Below are positions 5,080 through 39,850 of a DNA stretch of 64,000 nt, in pieces. The notes beneath the pieces are model-generated. The model did no database searches and was not told the origin of the DNA. It saw only the letters and a list, made by a program, of their open reading frames with translations. Made by a program: the position numbers and the translations under genes. Numbering within the stretch: position 1 is the stretch's first letter; each line of letters opens with the position of its first letter. The stretch comes from an uncultured Bacteroidota bacterium (GTDB taxonomy: Bacteria > Bacteroidota > Bacteroidia > Chitinophagales > Chitinophagaceae): NCBI GenBank assembly GCA_903905065.1, contig CAIVEW010000068.1, positions 62,001 to 126,000 of the forward strand, read 5' to 3'.

Positions 5080-6146
5080 GAAATAAGGTGCCGGTAGCTA
5101 ACCAGTGTGGAATTTGTATTTACATAAAGCGGGTCCGTATCGAAGAAATAGCCGCTGCCGCCCGATGGGCTGTAAGAGGCAGTAGGCTGAATGTTTATCA
5201 TGCTGACATGCGGTACATCACCCGAAGGAACGCAGGCGGGATTAGTCTGTGCATGGAGCCATGTGGATAACAGTACGGGTTGGTCGAACATGGCAGGATC
5301 AAATACGAATGCTTTGGGGCCGGTAGCGGTTTTTATGGTTACCAGTGGCGCTACATGGTACCACCAGTTTATGCAACAGCCATTCCATTTTTCAGCCTTC
5401 ACACAAAGCTCGTCGATGCCGGCATTTGCAAAACTGAATACTTTTTGTGTGCCATAATGGTACTTACTGTTAATGATCATGCACATTTTGTGCGCACGGG
5501 CATAGCAGCCGTCTTCGCAATACTGGAAACTGATGCAGTGGTCGATGGCGTAAGGGCCGGCCAACTGGCAGCACTGGTGGGCTATGTAATCGAACATGAG
5601 CTGCGCCGTATTGAAATCAGGGATCACATTGGTAAGCGTGTCTCCGGTCAGGTTAAGGACGCCCATGTCTGCCGCATGATCAATGGCTTCTGCAGAGGTC
5701 GTGGCTTCAATTTTCATTGCGGTACCTGCATGACTGACTACTTCTTTATTATTAAAGTAAGCCTGGTCCTCTGCAGAGGCAAGCGCCACGTGTGAAACCG
5801 CAGCATGCCAGGGATCGAACGTGACCTGCACAGCATGGTTTTTAGCAAAGGCATCCTTTAGCGTGTTTAAATCCGCTGAGTTGACCACGTTCAGAATTTG
5901 CTCGTTTTGGCAAAACATAACCTTTGTTGTACTGCCGTCTGCCGACGTGCGGATATTTGCTATCGTTACCACGCTGGTTATCTCCGCGTTTTGTACCAGC
6001 GGTGTGCCGGATGCCTTTTTCAGCGATTCCTCAGTAACGGCTACAGGTGTAACCGTCCTGCTCTTATTACAGGCGATCATCGTCCCGACCAGGCCTAATA
6101 CAGCGATTGCATAGACCGCTGGAAATTTTATCGTGTTTCTTTTCAT
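5070..6146 (-). CDS. Protein-glutamine glutaminase (protein deamidase)-like lipoprotein
   Basis: 358 aa with a lipoprotein-type signal (LGLVGTMIACNKS). A pro-domain of roughly residues 40-170 precedes the catalytic domain. The catalytic Cys-His-Asp triad of the family is visible: Cys214 in DGCYARAHKM, His264 in WWYHVAPLV and Asp283 in VFDPAMFD, in the same order and similar spacing as in the Chryseobacterium enzyme. Several extra Cys pairs (HQCCQ, NGCC) suggest disulfides. The enzyme class converts protein-bound Gln to Glu, releasing ammonia. The ATG at 6146 is chosen because it gives MKRNTIKF followed by the signal core. It forms an operon with the downstream pro-domain-like protein. Confidence 0.82.
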   Translation of the reverse strand: MKRNTIKFPAVYAIAVLGLVGTMIACNKSRTVTPVAVTEESLKKASGTPLVQNAEITSVVTIANIRTSADGSTTKVMFCQNEQILNVVNSADLNTLKDAFAKNHAVQVTFDPWHAAVSHVALASAEDQAYFNNKEVVSHAGTAMKIEATTSAEAIDHAADMGVLNLTGDTLTNVIPDFNTAQLMFDYIAHQCCQLAGPYAIDHCISFQYCEDGCYARAHKMCMIINSKYHYGTQKVFSFANAGIDELCVKAEKWNGCCINWWYHVAPLVTIKTATGPKAFVFDPAMFDQPVLLSTWLHAQTNPACVPSGDVPHVSMINIQPTASYSPSGGSGYFFDTDPLYVNTNSTLVSYRHLISCP

Positions 6147-6305
6147 GCCCATTTTGTTTATAAGCGGATACACACAAAATACATTCTTTTTTATTATTAT
6201 CGGAAAAATGAGGTGGAAATATTATTATTCCGCGTTAATCGAAAATTATTTAATAATAATAGTAACTTTCGTTGTTACCATATTTGTGGCAATAAAATTA
6301 TACCG

Positions 6306-7763
6306 ATGAAATACATTTTTGCCTTGATGATGTCGCTGCTCTGCGCTAACTATTTGTCAGCACAAAAGGCGATCACTTCTGCGGCTTCCGCAAAGCACAG
6401 ACAGGTATTATCCATGCTGCTGCAACAACATGGACAGAGCCACGACGCTATGAAGACAACAGCAGGCGTTAGTACTGAACGCGTTATCGGGCAAAGCACC
6501 CACGACAGTATGAGTGTGCTGGACGACTCTGTTGCCCTGAACTATGCAACCAATATGACGTCCGCCTACGATTTCAATATGATGGATTACCCCTACAACT
6601 ATCCGTATTCAGCATCGCCCATGTTCAATTACGCGGGGGCTTTCACAAAGCCGCAGGTATTATTTGATACCTTCCTGCATTGGACACAAGACCCCTTCAC
6701 CCTCGTCTACGGGCTATATGAGTCAGCGAGAGCAGGGTATGATGCCTCGAAAAACATGGTAAGTTACCTCGACCTTTTTGCCGACTCGGTTACCAATACC
6801 AACATGAGCTACATAAACAGGTTCAATATCGCCAATAACATAGACAGTGGTTACTGGTTCCACGAAAGTGCCGGCATGGCCGACAGTACATTTGAGCAGT
6901 TTTTTTCCTATAGCACAGCCGGCTTGCTAACTAAAGACAGCGTGTATGAATACCACTCAGGTTCTTGGCACCTGGTGGCCAGATCGTTGTACACTTATGA
7001 TGCATCAAATGACCTTACACAAATAGACTATTTCGCAAATGACACCGATACCTCCTTCACACAGCCGCTGCAAGAGAAGGAGCAGTACATCAATACTTAC
7101 GATGCAAGTAACAGATTGCTGACTGTGCTCACCAAACTCTACACCGGGGCTGTGCTCGACAGTTATGTAAGGGACACATTCGCCTATACCGGCACGCACG
7201 CCTTTCATACTTCATGGAAAGAATACCAGTATGACCCGATAAATACCTACTGGGCGCCGTTGTTCTTCATGTCGAAAACACTTAACGCAGCAGGCTTTCC
7301 AGATACAGTGAACATAGAGGGGTTTGATAGCATCATGAATGCATGGGTGCCGCAAACAATGGATGTGGTCAACTATAACAGTTTTAACCTGCCCGATTCG
7401 CTGCATGAGTACGATTATGACTTTACTGCGTTCCCATCAACGCCCAGTTATAACACCGTGTATTATTACCAGACTTACTTAAATACCACTGCGGCGCAAA
7501 ATATCGCACCTGCGGAAGACAAGATAATTGTATACCCTAACCCGGCTAGGAATACGATAAATATATCGCAGCAAGGACTGCAACAAAGCATGGCGAGTAT
7601 TGTTCTTATTAATGTAAATGGGCAGACAGTAAGACAAGAAGATGTGCAGGGACAAAGTGATGTACGGCTATCGACGGAAGATACGCTGCCCGGCGTGTAT
7701 TGGATATTTGTAAGGGATAAATCAGGAAATGTGCTGCACAGGCAGGCAATCGTCAAGCAGTAG
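6306..7763 (+). CDS. T9SS type A sorting-domain protein
   Basis: 485 aa. Signal peptide MKYIFALMMSLLCANYLSAQ. The central part is Tyr/Asp/Thr-rich and weakly repetitive, with YTYDASNDLTQIDYFAND and INTYDASNRLLTVL segments resembling a YD-like repeat (protein backbone with text-like Y-D-x-x-x-N-L motifs). The last 75 residues are a type A sorting domain (IVYPNPARNTINI ... LPGVYWIFVRDKSG ... IVKQ), so it is exported through the outer membrane by T9SS and anchored or released. The ATG at 6306 is chosen for the signal peptide; the 31 upstream codons are AT-rich leader. Confidence 0.85.
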   Translation: MKYIFALMMSLLCANYLSAQKAITSAASAKHRQVLSMLLQQHGQSHDAMKTTAGVSTERVIGQSTHDSMSVLDDSVALNYATNMTSAYDFNMMDYPYNYPYSASPMFNYAGAFTKPQVLFDTFLHWTQDPFTLVYGLYESARAGYDASKNMVSYLDLFADSVTNTNMSYINRFNIANNIDSGYWFHESAGMADSTFEQFFSYSTAGLLTKDSVYEYHSGSWHLVARSLYTYDASNDLTQIDYFANDTDTSFTQPLQEKEQYINTYDASNRLLTVLTKLYTGAVLDSYVRDTFAYTGTHAFHTSWKEYQYDPINTYWAPLFFMSKTLNAAGFPDTVNIEGFDSIMNAWVPQTMDVVNYNSFNLPDSLHEYDYDFTAFPSTPSYNTVYYYQTYLNTTAAQNIAPAEDKIIVYPNPARNTINISQQGLQQSMASIVLINVNGQTVRQEDVQGQSDVRLSTEDTLPGVYWIFVRDKSGNVLHRQAIVKQ

Positions 7764-9526: not shown

Positions 9527-10873
9527 CTACTCCACCACCACCTTCCTCACCACACGCTCATCTCCGCTCTGCAGATAAACAAAATAAACCCCCGCAGACT
9601 GGTCAGAAAGGTCTATTTCAGTAGTAGCGCCGTTGCTTACGGACGCGTATATTTTCTCACCCACCACATTGCGTACATCAATTAAGTATTGCTTGTTTGT
9701 CCGTGTTTGAATTGTGAATTTTCCAGTGGTGGGGTTGGGGTACACTTTTATATCACTCACATTCTGCGGCTCTTTTACGCTAGTAGGGTTATATACTTTG
9801 CGAATGCACTGGTTGTCGTAGTCGGCTATGATTATGTCGCCATTATCCGCCAGTATCGCATCACCAGGGACCATTTGAGCATTTAAAGGCGGGCCACCGT
9901 CACCTGAATATCCCCATGTATTATTGCCTGCTACTGTACTAATAATGTTTGTTACAGCATCTATTTTGCGCACAACTCCATTCCCAAATTCAGTAAGGAA
10001 AAGATTGTTTTGCTTGTCAAAAAATAAACCAGCAGGGCGGTTTAATTGAGCATTATTCGCTGGACCGCCGTCGCCGGAATAACCTACTGTGCCATTACCG
10101 GCAAATGTCGTAATAATACCTGTAGCAGCATCTACTTTACGAACTACATTATTCCACTGATCCGAAAAGAAAATATTGCCTGCATTGTCTAAACAAACTT
10201 TTTGAGCGCCATCTAATTCAGCATTTATTGCCAGACCATTATCGCCTGAATATCCGTTTGACCCATTCCCAGCAATAGTTGTAATAATTCCAGTAAATCC
10301 GTCCACTTTACGGACTACATCGTTGTAATAGTCTGCAATAAAAATATCTTTATGGGTATTAACGTATAAACCACTGGGGGCATTTAATTCTGCATTTATG
10401 GCTAGGCCGTTATCACCGGAGTATCCCGTAATACCATTTCCTGCAACAGTTGTGATAATGCCAGTGGAAACAGTTATCTTACGAATTCTGTTATCTAGCC
10501 CATCGGCTATATAAATATCTCCTACCGTATCTATAAATACATCAACGGGTTCCCATAATCCGGCATCTGTCGCTGGTCCATTATCGCCCGAATAACCTGT
10601 AGTATCTCTGCCTGCAATTGTAGTAATAATACCTGCGGGGTCTATTTTCCTTACCCTGTTGTTCGCAACATCCGCAATTAACAAATTACCCGATTTATCA
10701 AAGCATACTGCTTCCGGAAACCACAATTTTGCATCTATTGCAGGGCCGTTGTCTCCACCATAGCCTGCGCTGGTGTCTTTGTTGGCAATGGTCTCAATAA
10801 TCTCAACCTGCGCCTGCCCCGCAAGCGGCATACAGGCAATAACAAGAAGCAATAGGAAGAAGGCTTTCTTCAT
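9527..10873 (-). CDS. NHL-repeat T9SS type A protein (copy 1)
   Basis: 448 aa. Signal peptide MKKAFFLLLLVIACMPLAGQ. Six repeats of about 55 residues follow the pattern GYSGDNGPAxxAxL...DxxGNxxIADxxNxxxRKID...GIITTIAG, expected to fold as a beta-propeller. The C-terminus is a type A sorting domain (VYPNPTTGKFTIQT ... QSAGVYFVYLQSGDERVVRKVVVE). It is a paralogue of the next gene; the signal peptide, the last 70 residues and the 24 bp before the ATG are almost identical while the propeller core differs. Surface or secreted; ligand unknown. Confidence 0.9.
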   Translation of the reverse strand: MKKAFFLLLLVIACMPLAGQAQVEIIETIANKDTSAGYGGDNGPAIDAKLWFPEAVCFDKSGNLLIADVANNRVRKIDPAGIITTIAGRDTTGYSGDNGPATDAGLWEPVDVFIDTVGDIYIADGLDNRIRKITVSTGIITTVAGNGITGYSGDNGLAINAELNAPSGLYVNTHKDIFIADYYNDVVRKVDGFTGIITTIAGNGSNGYSGDNGLAINAELDGAQKVCLDNAGNIFFSDQWNNVVRKVDAATGIITTFAGNGTVGYSGDGGPANNAQLNRPAGLFFDKQNNLFLTEFGNGVVRKIDAVTNIISTVAGNNTWGYSGDGGPPLNAQMVPGDAILADNGDIIIADYDNQCIRKVYNPTSVKEPQNVSDIKVYPNPTTGKFTIQTRTNKQYLIDVRNVVGEKIYASVSNGATTEIDLSDQSAGVYFVYLQSGDERVVRKVVVE

Positions 10874-33530: not shown

Positions 33531-33869
33531 TTATTTCTCATCCATTAATTGCCGCACTTCCGCGAGTAAAAGAGGAATATCCTTGACGATTACTTTCCAT
33601 ATTATTGTATCATCTACTGCATCATAAGCATGTATCACCCGGTTGCGAAGGTTTACGATCTTACGAGCGGAGGATAGCGTAACTTCAGTACCTATCTTCA
33701 GCAAATTATTTGTCGCTTCCCCTATTATTTCCAGTTCTCTTTCTATTGCACGGCGTTTGGTAATATTAGCAGCATATTCATCCCATATCCTTCTTCCTTC
33801 CAGGTGAATGTCTACGTTTGATGCTGCCTGTTCTATATCTTTCAACAGTTTTTTTTCTTCCTCGGTCAT
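33531..33869 (-). CDS. hepT: HepT-like toxin (HEPN, DUF86)
   Basis: 112 aa. HEPN RNase motif Rx4HxY is seen as RNRVIHAYD, with the family IIGEATNNLL helix upstream. HepT toxins cleave RNA and are silenced by their MntA partner, which AMPylates the Tyr of the motif. The ATG overlaps the end of mntA (4 bp, 33866-33869). Confidence 0.9.
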   Translation of the reverse strand: MTEEEKKLLKDIEQAASNVDIHLEGRRIWDEYAANITKRRAIERELEIIGEATNNLLKIGTEVTLSSARKIVNLRNRVIHAYDAVDDTIIWKVIVKDIPLLLAEVRQLMDEK

Positions 33870-34168
33870 ATTAGTTGCAGTTTATGCCTATCGATGTTTG
33901 CGACGAGATAGGGATTTTTCAGCGTTTTTTCGGTAACAAGATCAACACTTTTATGTAATAGTGCCTCAAGCGCATCCGCAAGCGCAAAGTAATTGTCTGC
34001 ATAACTCACATAGTTCATATCCTCCGGAAACTTTATAATAAAATCTACATCACTTTCGGCAGTCATCGTATCCCTGGCAGCACTGCCAAACAAATATGCG
34101 CGCTCCACGCCGTATTCCAGCATGAGCTTTTTTATTTGCGTTAAGTTTTGTTCTACAACTTTTTCCAT
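33866..34168 (-). CDS. mntA: MntA-like antitoxin nucleotidyltransferase
   Basis: 100 aa. Nucleotidyltransferase signature GS-x10-DxD: LFGSAARDTMTAESDVDF. The MNT antitoxin transfers AMP to its HEPN toxin. It is upstream of and overlaps hepT. AT-rich DNA with 11-bp direct repeats lies upstream. Confidence 0.9.
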   Translation of the reverse strand: MEKVVEQNLTQIKKLMLEYGVERAYLFGSAARDTMTAESDVDFIIKFPEDMNYVSYADNYFALADALEALLHKSVDLVTEKTLKNPYLVANIDRHKLQLI

Positions 34169-34678: not shown

Positions 34679-34816
34679 GCCAGTTTTAAACTGGCTAAAT
34701 TATTTGGGCACGAGTCGGCTGCGCTCGTGGATTTGCTACAGACTCGCGCCAGTGTGAAATTATTTGGGCACGAGTCGGCTGCGCCCATGGATTTGTTACA
34801 TACTTGCGCCAGTGTG
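34679..34816. repeat. 60-bp tandem duplication with hairpins
   Basis: Unit 1 at 34697-34756 and unit 2 at 34757-34816, exactly 60 bp each and about 90 percent alike. Within a unit GGCACGAGTC and GACTCGCGCC can pair as a long hairpin and CACGAG/CTCGTG is a shorter one. It is preceded by the palindrome GCCAGTTTTAAACTGGC (34679-34695). Looks like a REP-type repeat. The 78-codon frame through it is judged non-coding. Confidence 0.65.
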
Positions 34817-34840
34817 AGCTTTTGTCTGCTGCAACTTCGA

Positions 34841-34930
34841 TCACAAAAAATAAAACACAGAATATACTACCAATGTAAAAAACGCGATAAGAACTAATAA
34901 ATAAGCAGTCATAGGAATAATATCTCTCAT
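34841..34930 (-). CDS. Candidate 29-aa single-span membrane peptide
   Basis: Too short for normal gene calling. Starts ATG at 34928-34930, begins MRDIIPMTAYLLVL, continues with one hydrophobic span of about 22 residues (Phe/Val/Leu/Tyr) and ends SVFYFL before TGA at 34841-34843. What supports it is the promoter: a TATGTTTG -7 box (34960-34967) with the same 18-bp palindrome at the same distance as in three neighbouring genes. Its leader can form a hairpin (CCCCG...CGGGG). Resembles small regulators of membrane complexes; partner unknown. Confidence 0.5.
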   Translation of the reverse strand: MRDIIPMTAYLLVLIAFFTLVVYSVFYFL

Positions 34931-34959: not shown

Positions 34960-35006
34960 CAAACATACCACTAACGAACGGTGCACGTATCCCTAGTTCT
35001 AGTAGT
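34960..35006 (-). promoter_or_regulatory. Palindrome-driven promoter of the 29-aa peptide
   Basis: Palindrome ATCCCTAGTTCTAGTAGT at 34989-35006; -7 box TATGTTTG on the minus strand at 34960-34967. The near edge of the palindrome is 22 bp from the first T of the box. Directed toward the small ORF at 34930. Confidence 0.65.
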
Positions 35007-35030
35007 TTTTTTGACTATGCCCGGAAATAA

Positions 35031-35062
35031 TAAAGCCGGCCGGAGAACAGGCCGGCCTTTTA
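35031..35062. terminator. Terminator of the two-component operon (bidirectional)
   Basis: GCCGGCC (35035-35041) pairs with GGCCGGC (35050-35056), loop GGAGAACA. T-rich on both sides, so on the minus strand it ends the operon and it also insulates the promoter at 34960-35006. Confidence 0.8.
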
Positions 35063-35150
35063 TTTACTAATCAGTATGAGCTGTTTATGTGCACTCCACG
35101 GGCGTGTAACCAGCAGGTTCCATTTGAGGGTAATTGTTGGAACCGGTTTT

Positions 35151-35558
35151 CTAATGCTTGTTGCTATTAAGGTCTGCCTCTTTTTCCTTCCGAATGGCGT
35201 GGCTGATCACGTTGATCAGCTCTTTTGCAAAGAATGGCTTTGTAACATAGCCGTCGGCACCCATGTTGAGGCCTTTCAGCACATCTTTCTCATCGGCATA
35301 TGCAGAGAGAAAAATAAAGGGGATCTTGTAAAGGCGCGGCTCGCTTTTTACCATCGTAAGGATGTTGTAACCGGAGATGTCCGGCAGGTTTATGTCGCAA
35401 ATGATCAGGTCAATTTCTAGTGCATGTTTTTTCAAAAGCTCAAAGGCAGCAAACCCAGCCGGGGCAAAAAGAGTTTCGTAACCGCCTGCCTCAATGATAA
35501 ATTTAATAGACTCCGCAAGGGCCAGTTCATCTTCTATAATGAGTATGGTTTCTTTCAT
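35151..35558 (-). CDS. Receiver-only response regulator
   Basis: 135 aa; just a CheY-like receiver. Phosphoacceptor Asp in LIICDINLPDISGYN, the acidic pair IEDELALAE at the N-terminus and Lys in YVTKPF. No output domain, so a phosphorelay intermediate or a protein-binding switch. Last gene of an operon starting at 39292; 6 bp after the kinase gene. Confidence 0.93.
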   Translation of the reverse strand: MKETILIIEDELALAESIKFIIEAGGYETLFAPAGFAAFELLKKHALEIDLIICDINLPDISGYNILTMVKSEPRLYKIPFIFLSAYADEKDVLKGLNMGADGYVTKPFFAKELINVISHAIRKEKEADLNSNKH

Positions 35559-35564
35559 GCTTTT

Positions 35565-38500
35565 TTATATTGGAAATGATATGGAGAATGTGGTGCCTTC
35601 ATGTTGCTGACTTGTGAACGTAACAGCGCCGCTATGTTTTTTAACCGCATAGTCTACCACCATTAGCCCCAGGCCCGTGCCCTGTATGGTTGCTACATTT
35701 GTGGCCCGGAAAAAGGACGTAAACAGCTTTCCCTGCTCCGCTGCGGGTATACCCACTCCCTGGTCGGTTACAGAGATAACCAGGTTACCATTTTCAATAC
35801 CCACCTGCATAACAGGAGCAGGCTTGCCCGGTGAGTATTTATAGGCATTGTTTACCAGGTTCACAACCGCCTGCCGGGTAAGATTCTTATCAATGCTTGC
35901 CGTAGTCACTGCAGCAGCTATATGCAGTTCCAGTACGCGGCCATCGGTATGTGGATCGAACAGATCCTGCTTTATGCCGGTGAAGAAGGATGGGAGATCC
36001 ACAGTTTGCCGTTTGAACTCGATATTGCCGGCCTCTATCCGGCTGATGGTCATCAGCTGGTCCAGTATGTCTGTCATGATAGTGACTTCCTTGATGATCC
36101 TTTTGAGCATGACAGCCGGGTCTAGCCTGGAGGTACCGTGCGTGCCTGCAGTTCGTATCATTTCCAGTATCTCCGCATTGGCCAATATTATTGCCAGTGG
36201 TGTGCGCAGCTCGTGAGATGTGATCTTTACAAAACGCGATTTAGACAGGTTCAGTTCTTTTTCCTTTGCAATGATCTGCGTAAGGCTTTCTTCTTTATTC
36301 GCGATCTCTGTAATATCCGATATGCGCCCCACAAAGGCTGCTTCGATACTGCCGATAGCTTTTGTTAATGAGAAATCAAGATAGGCGCTTTGGCCGCGGT
36401 CGTCAATAAAATGAATGATGCCGGATTGCGGCTGTCCGGTCTGGTTGAGCTGCGATAGCTTTTGCTTCACTTTTAGTGTCTCTGCAGCAGGGAGCAGGTC
36501 AAAAAGGCTCAGCGGTTGATCGAAGTTGCTATCCGCGATATTGAGGAGGTGCCGGAAAGAATTATTGACGAAATTTATGTGTCCGACCTCATCGAATGTA
36601 AAAACGCCGTCACGGATCATATTGAGCAGCATCCGGATTCGCGCTTCTTGTAATTCGGCGAATCTCTTATTTTTTACCTGCTCTGTAACATCTACACCAT
36701 AACCCACTACAAATTTTAATGCCCCCCCGCTGCTGGTATGAGGATGAAAGAACCTGAGCTTGAATGTACTGGTGCCGTCCTCATTTTTTATTTCATCTAT
36801 AAAGCTTGCGGGCTCGTTCGTAGCCAGAACGTCACGGAACTTTGCCCGGCGGCCGTCAGCGATAGCGGGAGCCAGGTTTCTTCTTACGCAATAGTCGTAG
36901 TCATCTTTACCGATGATCCATTTGCGCATTTCCGGGTCCCGCACGGCAGACCTGTTGACAAATTCATATTTGTGATCCGGACTGAGGATGGCGATGTCGG
37001 CAGGAATGGCATCGAGAATGTTGTGGTAGTATTCTCTTTGCTCTATGAGTTTCTTTTCATTGATCACCTGATCGGTAATGTCTATCCCGAACCCAACAAG
37101 GAAATCAATGTGCTCATCCTTGTCCAGGAAAGGATAAAGAAATCGCAACTTATACTCTTCCGTACCGTCAGGTTTCAATCTGCGGTCTACTTCCTTAGAC
37201 GCTCTCCGCAACATGATCGCCTCGTCAAAAATCTTCTTCCTGCTATCGGCAAGGTCCGTGGGCAAGTTTCTTTCCCTGCAATAATCATACATGTCTTTAC
37301 CGATCAGCCATTCCCTCATTCTGTCATCCCTAACGGCTGCTTTATTCAGAAATCTGAACTTCTGGTCGGGAGATAGAATAATGACATCAGCCGGCAGCTC
37401 ATTAAGAATGCGGTGGTAGTACTCCCGCTGCTCCTTTATCTCTATGTCTTTCAGCTTTTCCTCGTTTATATCCGTAAGCGTGCCGAACACGATACGTGCG
37501 CGCTCATCTTCCGCCCATTCTATTACTTTGCCCTTCGTCTTATAGTATTTAGGCTGGCCGTTCTTAGTTTTAAGCTGTAGCTCATAAGAAAAAGTGGGTT
37601 CACTTTTGGTGAAACGCCGAATGATGCCTGACCGGATATGTTCCAGGTCTTCCGGCTGCATGGATGCTATAAAATCTTCTATTCTGTAAGCGTCCTTTGG
37701 CTGCCAGCCGAGTATTTCTTTGAATTTGAATGATACTTGCAGGTCTGACTTACTGAGGTCGTAAAACCACGCCCCATCTCCGGCACCTTCCATCGCAAAT
37801 TTCCACAGCTCCTGTGTTTCGAGCAGGGCTCTCTCGTTTTCCTTCAGCGTGGTTACATCTTCAAAGCTGTAGTAGCGGCCCTTTACCTCATTATTGCCAT
37901 CGAGTATGGGCTGCACAGTTGTTCTGAACCAGAAAGACGCATTGCGCCTGTTGTACCCAATGTTATCAAATGAAAATGGTTCTTTCAGCTTCACCATCTC
38001 ATCCACATAGCTTTTTGGAATGTGGGTAGACCCGGAGCCATAGATCACCTGTCTTGGCCGGATTCCGATCACCTCATGCAGGTGATATCCCGTAGTGCGC
38101 TCAAAATCGCGGTCGACCCATTCTATTGCGCCTTTCGCATCCGTAATGGCAACACCTTTTATGGTTTCGGTACTATCGAATGGACTGATAGCGTTGCCAC
38201 TCACCAGGCTATAAGATTCTGTGGTAGTGATACCGGAAGATTTCAAGAAAATATCTTCGTGACGGATCTGTGTATTGTCGCGTCGCTGGCTATTAGATAT
38301 CCCGTGCTGCATATTCACTTTTGGCGAGCCCAGGAAGAAAATATCACCGCTGTCTTCGATACTCAAAAGTTCGCCTTGCAGCAGGATGGGGTTGCGACCG
38401 GCGCTGTCTAAGCAGCTGATCAACTGATAATGTGTGCCGGTAATTTCATCCACAGTGTGTTTATCGAGGTCTGGCGTCTGGATCGTGAATATTTCCGTTA

Positions 38501-38642
38501 GCTTTTGCCCTGCCCGCAGTTGTACAACTTTGGCGAGCGATGAGCCAAAAGATTTTATACGGCGAGACCTATCAACAAGAATATAAAATGGGAATAGCCT
38601 GTTGATCTGGTTTTCAGCAATATTAAATTGAGTTCCCAACAT
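35565..38642 (-). CDS. Sensor histidine kinase with HNOBA-like and multiple PAS domains
   Basis: 1025 aa, no membrane span, so cytoplasmic. Residues about 10-112 (FPFYILVDRSRRIKSFGSSL ... LLQGELLSIEDSGDIFFLGS) match the pattern of the heme-NO-binding-associated (HNOBA) domain of soluble guanylate cyclases. Then about five PAS units (VAITDAKGAIEWVDRDFERT; WKFAMEGAGDGAWFYDL; two near-duplicates with EYYH(R/N)IL(N/D)x(L/I)PAD, YDYC and RRLKPDG/NEDGTS; one final). HisKA with SHELRTPLAI (His about residue 810) and HATPase (NLVNNAYKYSPG, DQGVGIP, GTGLGLMVV). Partners: adjacent LuxR-type and receiver-only regulators. An H-NOX protein is not seen in the window. Confidence 0.9.
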   Translation of the reverse strand: MLGTQFNIAENQINRLFPFYILVDRSRRIKSFGSSLAKVVQLRAGQKLTEIFTIQTPDLDKHTVDEITGTHYQLISCLDSAGRNPILLQGELLSIEDSGDIFFLGSPKVNMQHGISNSQRRDNTQIRHEDIFLKSSGITTTESYSLVSGNAISPFDSTETIKGVAITDAKGAIEWVDRDFERTTGYHLHEVIGIRPRQVIYGSGSTHIPKSYVDEMVKLKEPFSFDNIGYNRRNASFWFRTTVQPILDGNNEVKGRYYSFEDVTTLKENERALLETQELWKFAMEGAGDGAWFYDLSKSDLQVSFKFKEILGWQPKDAYRIEDFIASMQPEDLEHIRSGIIRRFTKSEPTFSYELQLKTKNGQPKYYKTKGKVIEWAEDERARIVFGTLTDINEEKLKDIEIKEQREYYHRILNELPADVIILSPDQKFRFLNKAAVRDDRMREWLIGKDMYDYCRERNLPTDLADSRKKIFDEAIMLRRASKEVDRRLKPDGTEEYKLRFLYPFLDKDEHIDFLVGFGIDITDQVINEKKLIEQREYYHNILDAIPADIAILSPDHKYEFVNRSAVRDPEMRKWIIGKDDYDYCVRRNLAPAIADGRRAKFRDVLATNEPASFIDEIKNEDGTSTFKLRFFHPHTSSGGALKFVVGYGVDVTEQVKNKRFAELQEARIRMLLNMIRDGVFTFDEVGHINFVNNSFRHLLNIADSNFDQPLSLFDLLPAAETLKVKQKLSQLNQTGQPQSGIIHFIDDRGQSAYLDFSLTKAIGSIEAAFVGRISDITEIANKEESLTQIIAKEKELNLSKSRFVKITSHELRTPLAIILANAEILEMIRTAGTHGTSRLDPAVMLKRIIKEVTIMTDILDQLMTISRIEAGNIEFKRQTVDLPSFFTGIKQDLFDPHTDGRVLELHIAAAVTTASIDKNLTRQAVVNLVNNAYKYSPGKPAPVMQVGIENGNLVISVTDQGVGIPAAEQGKLFTSFFRATNVATIQGTGLGLMVVDYAVKKHSGAVTFTSQQHEGTTFSISFPI

Positions 38643-38656
38643 TTTTTCAGACTAAG

Positions 38657-39292
38657 TTAATTGAGGTTGTTGCGTTTCACTACCAGCTCCATTTTAGAAT
38701 TTACGTCAAATTTTATGTATATTTTTTTTAGATGAAAGTTGACGGTGTAATAGGATATGTTTAGTTTTTCAGCGATCTCTTTGTAACTCAAACCTTGTTC
38801 AACCAGTTTTATGATGTCCATTTCCCGGTTTGTGAGCTCATCATCAATTGACTGGTTATTTAATTTTTTCTTTTCCCTCATCAGCCACATTAGCTTGCTT
38901 AAAATCTCCGGCTCCAGAAAACTGCCGGTTTCATGTAATTGTTCCATCATGTTCACCAGGCTGTTCATGGTAATTGGTTTGTAAAGAAAGCCATTGGCAC
39001 CATTTTCTACAGCACGAAGGAGGAGGTCATGATTGTCTTTATCTCCGGTGATCACAATTATCTGGACCCCTGAAAACCGTTGGTGTAGATCAGCAATAAG
39101 ATCGATACCCGAGCCATCGAGCAGATGAATATCCAACAATATGAAGTGTGGCACCACGTCGAGCTTTACGCGCTTGATTTCGAAATAGGAGGCGGCAGAA
39201 AAGACAACTTTGTAGCTGCCTGTTGCTTCCAGAAAATCGGCTATTGATTCCCTCAACGGCTGATTATCCTCCAAGATACCTAAGTATGTCAT
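38657..39292 (-). CDS. LuxR-family response regulator, first gene of the kinase operon
   Basis: 211 aa: receiver (phospho-Asp in ILLDIHLLDGSG; Lys in LYKPIT) and LuxR/GerE HTH (ELTNREMDIIKLVEQGLSYK, EIAEKLNISYYTVNFHLKKI). Followed 14 bp on by the kinase gene. Its promoter has a perfect CTACTA-N4-TAGTAG palindrome, so autoregulation is likely; LuxR-type regulators commonly bind such dyads at about -42. Best candidate for the protein that binds all four palindromes of the locus. Confidence 0.93.
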   Translation of the reverse strand: MTYLGILEDNQPLRESIADFLEATGSYKVVFSAASYFEIKRVKLDVVPHFILLDIHLLDGSGIDLIADLHQRFSGVQIIVITGDKDNHDLLLRAVENGANGFLYKPITMNSLVNMMEQLHETGSFLEPEILSKLMWLMREKKKLNNQSIDDELTNREMDIIKLVEQGLSYKEIAEKLNISYYTVNFHLKKIYIKFDVNSKMELVVKRNNLN

Positions 39293-39314
39293 GGGCTGAT
39301 CTTTTAGTAAGCAG

Positions 39315-39361
39315 CAAAGGTCGATAATTTGTTAACGAAATTAGCTACTAATGTTAGTAGT
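39315..39361 (-). promoter_or_regulatory. Palindrome-driven promoter of the response regulator operon
   Basis: Palindrome GCTACTAATGTTAGTAGT at 39344-39361 (inner CTACTA/TAGTAG perfect); -7-like box GACCTTTG on the minus strand at 39315-39322. Edge to box is 22 bp. The ATG is 23 bp beyond the box. Confidence 0.65.
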
Positions 39362-39438
39362 AAATATGTTGAAAAGACGCAAAAACTGTTTCAGCGAAAA
39401 ATGTAAAGTTAAATTGGCTGGGCTCATTTATACCTGGA

Positions 39439-39669
39439 CTACGCGTCTTTGTCCAGATTGTCAAATTCCACGCGGAAGACGGTGAAAAGATTATCTATCA
39501 GAATTAATGTCGTTAGCGTGTTTGCTGCGAGGGAAGCATAGCCATCAGATATCGCACCATTGCGTCCTGCCGCAAGCTGCATGAAACGCAAATGTTGTTC
39601 TTTTAAAGAAATAATTTTTTCGGTAAATGCTTGATAAGTGGCTGTCTGTTCGATTTGTTGCAAATCCAT
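39439..39669 (-). CDS. 76-aa protein of unknown function, in the palindrome regulon
   Basis: Predicted all-alpha, soluble (MDLQQIEQTATYQAFTEKII ... NLFTVFRVEFDNLDKDA). No family recognised. Accepted because it has the same promoter layout as its neighbours and a normal start 23 bp after the -7 region. Confidence 0.65.
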   Translation of the reverse strand: MDLQQIEQTATYQAFTEKIISLKEQHLRFMQLAAGRNGAISDGYASLAANTLTTLILIDNLFTVFRVEFDNLDKDA

Positions 39670-39691
39670 GTTTTCGATACTACTTCATGTT

Positions 39692-39738
39692 GCAATGTAC
39701 GCAGGCATGGCATGCATCGTACCCCTAGAATTAGTAGT
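39692..39738 (-). promoter_or_regulatory. Palindrome-driven promoter of the 76-aa gene
   Basis: Palindrome ACCCCTAGAATTAGTAGT at 39721-39738; a degenerate -7 box TACATTGC on the minus strand at 39692-39699. Edge to box is 22 bp. Flanks resemble those at 34981-35012 (CGTAnCCCTAG and TAGTAGTTTTTT), so the similarity extends past the palindrome. Confidence 0.6.
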
Positions 39739-39803
39739 TTTTTCGATGTGCTTTGAAAAAATTGTGATTATCAGTTTTAGCCAGATACGTTCGAAAAAAA
39801 TAA

Positions 39804-39850
39804 ACTACTATTATTAGGGGCTGTATTTCGCGGAAGTCGTTCTAGTTTTG
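39804..39850 (+). promoter_or_regulatory. Palindrome-driven promoter of the ArsR-type gene
   Basis: Palindrome on the minus strand GCCCCTAATAATAGTAGT (39804-39821); -7 box TAGTTTTG at 39843-39850 on the plus strand. Edge to box is 22 bp. Divergent from the previous promoter, the two palindromes being 65 bp apart. Confidence 0.65.

Follow-up and report, generated by a model that had tools for sequence, protein, structure and literature searches.

A palindrome with constant spacing to the promoter box marks the putative regulon of a NarL-type regulator in an uncultured Bacteroidota bacterium

Response regulators of the NarL/FixJ family commonly have inverted-repeat operators and control their own genes, and to our knowledge the operators and targets of most two-component systems of Bacteroidota are not known. 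Here we analyse a 64,000-nucleotide (nt) stretch of DNA (the window) from an uncultured member of the Chitinophagaceae (phylum Bacteroidota; assembly GCA_903905065.1, contig CAIVEW010000068.1, positions 62,001–126,000), in which four promoters share an 18-base-pair (bp) palindrome with the core CTA-N4-TAG. Beside them lies the gene for a response regulator of 211 amino acids (aa; P0001; 38657–39292, minus strand), with a receiver domain (PF00072, expectation value (E) 1.9e-16) and a GerE helix–turn–helix domain (PF00196, E 5.9e-17), both over the cut-off. The closest solved structures, VraR, NarL and DevR, have the same two domains and match over nearly the whole length (E 8.5e-19, 5.3e-17 and 3.1e-15, respectively); judged by its domain content, the protein is an ordinary NarL/FixJ regulator. 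What differs from VraR, NarL and DevR is a CTA-N4-TAG core locked 21 nt from a Bacteroidota promoter box of the form TAnnTTTG. On the sequence evidence set out below, the palindrome is very probably the operator of the 211-aa regulator, which would activate from about −42, control its own operon and serve a compact local regulon.

The H-NOX pathways of Shewanella, Vibrio and Pseudoalteromonas, as described in the main text of PMC8738867, combine an H-NOX protein with a histidine kinase and response regulators, and transcriptional outputs are mentioned there for H-NOX nitric-oxide pathways. Unlike the pathways of that text, in which a word search finds neither ‘Bacteroid’ nor ‘LuxR’, the system presented here belongs to Bacteroidota, has kinases that match HNOBA and has a NarL-type regulator with a recognisable operator. 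An H-NOX gene accompanied by its kinase is a feature of the related locus L130, not of the window's system, which we do not class as an H-NOX system because the window's own genome has no match to PF07700 at E 0.001; such matches are present in 4 of the 15 genomes searched. Among the literature matches listed (titles and opening parts of abstracts of open-licence papers, which are weak evidence of absence), none appears to describe the combination of palindrome, spacer and box that we here call the composite.

Four promoters share one geometry

Exactly four perfect matches to RYNNCTANNNNTAGTAGT occur in the window, at 34989–35006, 39344–39361 and 39721–39738 on the plus strand and at 39804–39821 on the minus strand, and at all four the spacer between operator and box is 21 nt. 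The positions and the constant box distance reported by a first-pass annotation of this DNA are thereby confirmed. With up to two mismatches allowed, RYNNCTANNNNTAGTAGT has 23 matches in the window (some of them one site on both strands), compared with 11.14 ± 3.56 in 100 shuffles (largest 22). The operator core is CTA-N4-TAG and its fuller form AYYMCTA-N4-TAGKRRT.

Read towards the gene, the operator of the response-regulator operon (39344–39361, minus strand) is ACTACTAACATTAGTAGC, followed by the −7 box GACCTTTG at 39315–39322; the composite also stands before homologues of this operon. Downstream of the operon, ACTACTAGAACTAGGGAT (34989–35006, minus strand) and the box TATGTTTG (34960–34967) face a putative open reading frame (ORF) for a hydrophobic peptide of 29 aa (34841–34930, minus strand; no Pfam match). 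The gene for a 76-aa protein (39439–39669, minus strand) is preceded by ACTACTAATTCTAGGGGT (39721–39738, minus strand) and the degenerate box TACATTGC (39692–39699), and that for a 103-aa ArsR-type regulator (P0003; 39880–40191, plus strand) by ACTACTATTATTAGGGGC (39804–39821, plus strand) and the box TAGTTTTG (39843–39850), a composite that recurs before some homologues of this gene too. Start codons follow the box ends at 29, 22, 22 and 29 nt for the four promoters in order of position.

The boxes themselves are less uniform than the first-pass annotation implied when it placed TAnnTTTG-type boxes at all four promoters. Over the six specified positions, two are perfect, one agrees at 5/6 and one at 4/6, so the set is weaker than described: TATGTTTG and TAGTTTTG are good, GACCTTTG is fair and TACATTGC is poor. 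Likewise, the distal half-site TAGTAGT, which had been called invariant, is so in the window's four operators and not in relatives.

The operon under the first of these operators (39292–35151, minus strand) encodes the 211-aa regulator, then a 1025-aa PAS histidine kinase (35565–38642, minus strand) and, as its final gene, a 135-aa stand-alone receiver (35151–35558, minus strand). The kinase contains several PAS domains, HisKA, HATPase and a partial N-terminal match to HNOBA (PF07701, residues 8–66), which scores 43.0 bits against a cut-off of 23.4 and covers only profile positions 3–62 of 216. With HisKA and HATPase encoded directly after the regulator gene on the same strand, phosphotransfer to the regulator is putative.

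The composite is also nearly confined to this locus. The window's own genome (4,678,230 bp in 113 contigs, 98.89% complete) holds six matches to the composite at up to two mismatches, namely the window's four and two others that lie apparently within coding sequence, and a reversed control of the composite gave 2 + 3 matches; the whole-genome scan suggested at first pass thus yields little beyond the window's promoters. The palindrome alone is somewhat more frequent: ACTACTANNNNTAGNNNY (ACTACTA-N4-TAG-NNN-Y) has seven matches in the genome, four of which are the window sites, and AYYMCTANNNNTAGKRRT has four, two of which are window sites.

The composite is conserved before homologous regulator genes

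We gathered 71 loci with homologues of the regulator by a peptide pattern of the T[IV]NxH[LI]K kind; metagenome-assembled genomes of Bacteroidetes, Chitinophagaceae and Flavipsychrobacter are among the sources of the closest. Because the loci were found by such a pattern, the homologues carry the recognition segment T[IV]NxH[LI]K by construction, and its sharing is not independent evidence. A composite was counted where CTA-N4-TAG, a spacer and a box matching at least 5/6 positions occurred within 300 nt upstream, so the invariance of C5-T6-A7 and T12-A13-G14 likewise follows from the construction of the search.

The composite with a spacer of exactly 21 nt is found upstream of 20 of the 71 regulator homologues, and 24 have it at 20–22 nt. 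The spacer histogram peaks sharply (20 nt, 2 loci; 21 nt, 20; 22 nt, 2; any other spacer, at most 4), and 200 dinucleotide shuffles gave a mean of 0.06 composites and a maximum of 1. When all 64 palindromic trinucleotide cores were compared, CTA scored 20 and each other core at most 1. By identity of the best segment, the 21-nt composite stands before 17/30 loci at 40% or above and 3/41 below 40%; the spacing is kept even at homologues of only 34–36% identity (L137, L141 and L149), which argues for contact with RNA polymerase. The expectation that orthologues of the 211-aa regulator in relatives would carry the composite is thus borne out, and the compact, probably autoregulated LuxR-type regulon proposed at first pass gains support both from near-confinement in the genome and from the conserved 21-nt unit.

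The outer operator positions vary across loci, being mainly of the TAGTAGT or TAGGGAT type. Among 29 other regulator loci from related genomes (L040–L068), seven have strict ACTACTA-N4-TAG, and the closest of the 29 carry ACTACTA-N4-TAG or TAGGGAT variants upstream at the same distance, L048 and L051 being among those without. At L116 and at one ArsR gene (G004:C39), the proximal half-site is retained at 21 nt and the distal half has decayed, as judged by eye. CTA-N4-TAG is absent from the upstream sequence (up to 330 nt) of all 27 NarL-type matches of a more distant kind that were examined in four genomes; these 27 were drawn from 36 matches after omission of six without a locus and three that were receiver-only or partial, and they include L239, which has a TVNTH segment. 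At one of these distant loci, L260, only about 156 nt of upstream sequence was available.

A census of the 18-mer points the same way. Fourteen genomes selected because they hold a regulator match contain it 39 times, versus 26 times for the reversed control, and 17 genomes of the same genus, all but one of which lack a regulator match at E 1e-25, contain it 15 times versus 33 (difference between groups, Mann–Whitney p = 0.006; controls, p = 0.89). Counted by hand, a box matching at least 5/6 positions at 20–22 nt on either strand accompanies 19 of the 30 palindromes examined in the first group versus 1 of 15 in the other (Fisher p = 3.4e-4), some such matches being expected by chance because three spacers, both strands and 5/6 positions were allowed. 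The 30 were taken from the 39 partly as regions of our choice, and the nine left out include three known regulator-gene sites (G007:C23, G023:C226 and G014:C13). The 14 genomes were themselves picked from 39 with a regulator match, same-genus G006, G011, G017 and G032 being left out. G016, with a regulator match of 30%, was counted in the other group, in which five genomes are only 57–85% complete. Regulator matches at E 1e-25 were scored among 20 candidates or fewer per genome, so that absence is no proof; a profile search scored all candidates in G001, G004, G008 and G016. The candidate limit and the omitted genomes affect the census, and they leave the main test on 71 loci and our weighting of the readings unchanged.

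Probable activation by the regulator and its alternatives

The two-fold symmetry of the operator and its conservation together with the regulator gene make it a putative binding site of the 211-aa protein. Its centre lies 30 bp ahead of the first T in the box, at a predicted position of about −42, which fits the geometry of a class-II activator, whose site is centred near −41.5 beside the −35/−33 region. From these features we infer binding by the regulator, its phosphorylation by the kinase and activation. The PAS/HNOBA kinase of the operon would phosphorylate the regulator, a dimer of which would bind with its centre 30 bp from the box, contact RNA polymerase and raise transcription of its own operon in a positive feedback. 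Output would extend to a few neighbours, namely the ArsR-type regulator, the 76-aa protein and the 29-aa membrane peptide.

The same protein could instead bind and repress, its operator at about −50 to −33 blocking polymerase so that the genes stay silent until a signal arrives. The promoter-proximal half-site does end near the place at which we take the Bacteroidota −33 element to lie, as repression of this kind would suggest. Class-II promoters are expected to have a poor or missing −33 element; TTTG occurs 17–22 nt from the box in 0/9 perfect-box composites versus 5/85 other perfect boxes, and TTG in 1/9 versus 15/85, with few sites and a weak control in both comparisons. Repressor sites tolerate shifts, and a rigid 21-nt spacing held across distant homologues is more typical of contact between an activator and polymerase; we therefore consider repression unlikely. 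It is very hard to credit that no regulator is involved and that the palindrome either extends the promoter as an element recognised by a sigma factor or is similar by chance. A fixed distance to the box is what a sigma-factor element would show, but the composite is almost restricted to a single locus of the genome, its half-sites are inverted with correlated outer bases, and its distribution is specific to a regulator subfamily; the shuffles of the window and of the 71 loci rule out chance similarity.

Inverted repeats are also binding sites of ArsR-family proteins, and the ArsR-type P0003 or a paralogue might bind the palindrome and repress the four promoters. An intact composite precedes ArsR genes in the window, G016 and G008 (3/30 ArsR loci, of which L010 and L024 have only 59 and 87 nt upstream) and at G004:C22, and no regulator match at E 1e-25 was found in G004 or G008. 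Yet none of 23 further ArsR loci (L016–L038, 54–61% identity, L024 with its 87 nt among them) has the composite, even though P0003 is matched in 147/149 genomes. Composites at regulator operons occur in G012, G007, G003, G020 and G023, where the top ArsR match reaches only about 58% identity. The motif follows the NarL-type regulator subfamily in its distribution. Binding by ArsR is quite improbable, and the ArsR-type gene is more plausibly a recurring target than the source of the regulator.

Several observations nevertheless weigh against the palindrome being the operator of the 211-aa regulator. Of the four boxes in the window, two depart from TAnnTTTG. An intact composite directly upstream is lacking at 11 of the 30 loci at 40% identity or above, although at five of these 11 (L108–L111 and L120) a composite precedes the gene for a small membrane protein that lies a little upstream of the regulator gene. 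The 71 loci include several near-duplicates, and their counts therefore do not represent independent events. The omitted genomes G011 and G032 hold a regulator of 44% identity with no palindrome upstream, and their omission tilts the census in favour of our proposal. G004 and G008 keep a composite before ArsR with no regulator match at E 1e-25, and the profile search of these two genomes found only more distant regulator types; another protein must therefore read the site there, or the site is a relic. Finally, a weaker composite of L130, at 5534, does not have the TAGTTAT half of its neighbours.

Two further observations concern the ArsR genes. The composite or its proximal half stands before ArsR at G004:C22, G004:C39 and G008:C273. 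In eight loci (L227, L229, L230, L231, L232, L234, L235 and L200), an ArsR-type gene is followed by a 93-aa ORF that by eye resembles a DNA-binding protein of the HU type, and these copies have the composite upstream in some cases and not in others.

Genes under the composite in relatives

In relatives the composite precedes genes of sensory type. At L210 it stands before an H-NOX gene (box to start 87 nt) that is followed by an HNOBA kinase gene, and at L211, with a spacer of 22 nt, its box lies 23 nt before the gene of a 394-aa protein that has both FIST domains (N and C). PAS kinase genes, each followed by a receiver-like ORF, lie below the composite at L207 (66 nt) and L208 (59 nt), another gene for a NarL-type regulator at L198 (box to start 39 nt), and at L197, about 170 nt from the box, the gene for a PAS protein that shows a weak match to ATPase. 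The L130 operon under the composite encodes a regulator, a receiver, H-NOX, an HNOBA kinase and a receiver-like protein (receivers by eye), and the H-NOX proteins of L130 and L210 retain His104 and YxSxR at 133–137. HNOBA is present in 12 of the 16 kinases scanned from such regulator operons; it was not matched in those of L200, L110 and L120 or in the truncated kinase of L131. The placement of composites before H-NOX, FIST, kinase and receiver genes suggests that this is probably a signalling system of the haem/nitric-oxide type. NosP nitric-oxide sensors are FIST-domain proteins; the L211 protein is NosP-like in this sense, whereas the single FIST match of the window's genome (G000:C25) has no CTA-N4-TAG within the surrounding 3,570 bp.

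The regulator gene of L130 has an operator built from TAGTTAT-type half-sites, and TAGTTAT is also the proximal half of the composites at 5860 and 6013, a co-variation that favours binding by the regulator. These two composites (5860–6013) lie just downstream of a second regulator gene; no ORF of at least 75 aa lies below them on that strand, and they possibly serve a short peptide or small RNA, as at the window's 34989 site.

Small membrane proteins form a second group of genes below composites. Genes there encode proteins of roughly 100 aa that contain two hydrophobic stretches, at L109, L110, L111 and L120, and at L108 with an uncertain start; in these five loci the genes lie at about 6100–6700. 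L196 has a 97-aa ORF with a TTG start below the composite and one of 98 aa at a distance of about 370 nt, with a 92-aa ORF in front of it (small-protein ORFs at 9590–9880 and 10496–10792). The middle parts of the small membrane proteins of these loci align, and the one member scanned (L196, 10496–10792) has no Pfam match. Beside a regulator operon of G033, a pair of divergent composites (L200, 3369–5439) serves a 98-aa ORF on one side and, on the other, a 433-aa ORF that a receiver-like ORF follows; contigs of G016 and G001 end near the same divergent arrangement (L214, 265; L215, 7715–7881).

Taken together, a wider picture can be drawn tentatively, with a confidence that stops a little short of even. 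In a signalling regulon of Bacteroidota not described before, H-NOX and FIST/NosP sensors may signal through HNOBA kinases and a dedicated regulator of the NarL type, which would work through the rigid unit of operator, 21 nt and TAnnTTTG and switch on its own operon, further kinase–receiver pairs, ArsR-type genes and a family of small membrane proteins; the window's species would have lost H-NOX, its circuit having shrunk to one 5-kb locus. The rigid composite offers a sequence rule that needs nothing beyond the genome sequence to propose targets of a regulator. In environmental Bacteroidota it directs attention to a circuit linked to haem and nitric oxide, to which it connects small membrane proteins of unassigned function. 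The geometry of activator-dependent transcription at promoters of the unusual TAnnTTTG type also becomes open to direct test.

Other features of the locus

The 76-aa protein is an orphan: among 149 related genomes it is matched at E 0.001 in its own only, and in none of the 148 others. Between the end of the operon and the 34989 operator, a G+C-rich inverted repeat (ggccggcc; 35035–35057) is probably a terminator, as judged by eye. Below the 29-aa ORF, at 34700–34830, a stretch of about 60 bp (aaattatttgggcacgagtcggctgcgc...) occurs twice in tandem. Further along, at 33531–34168, two small overlapping ORFs on the minus strand resemble, again by eye, a nucleotidyltransferase/HEPN pair.

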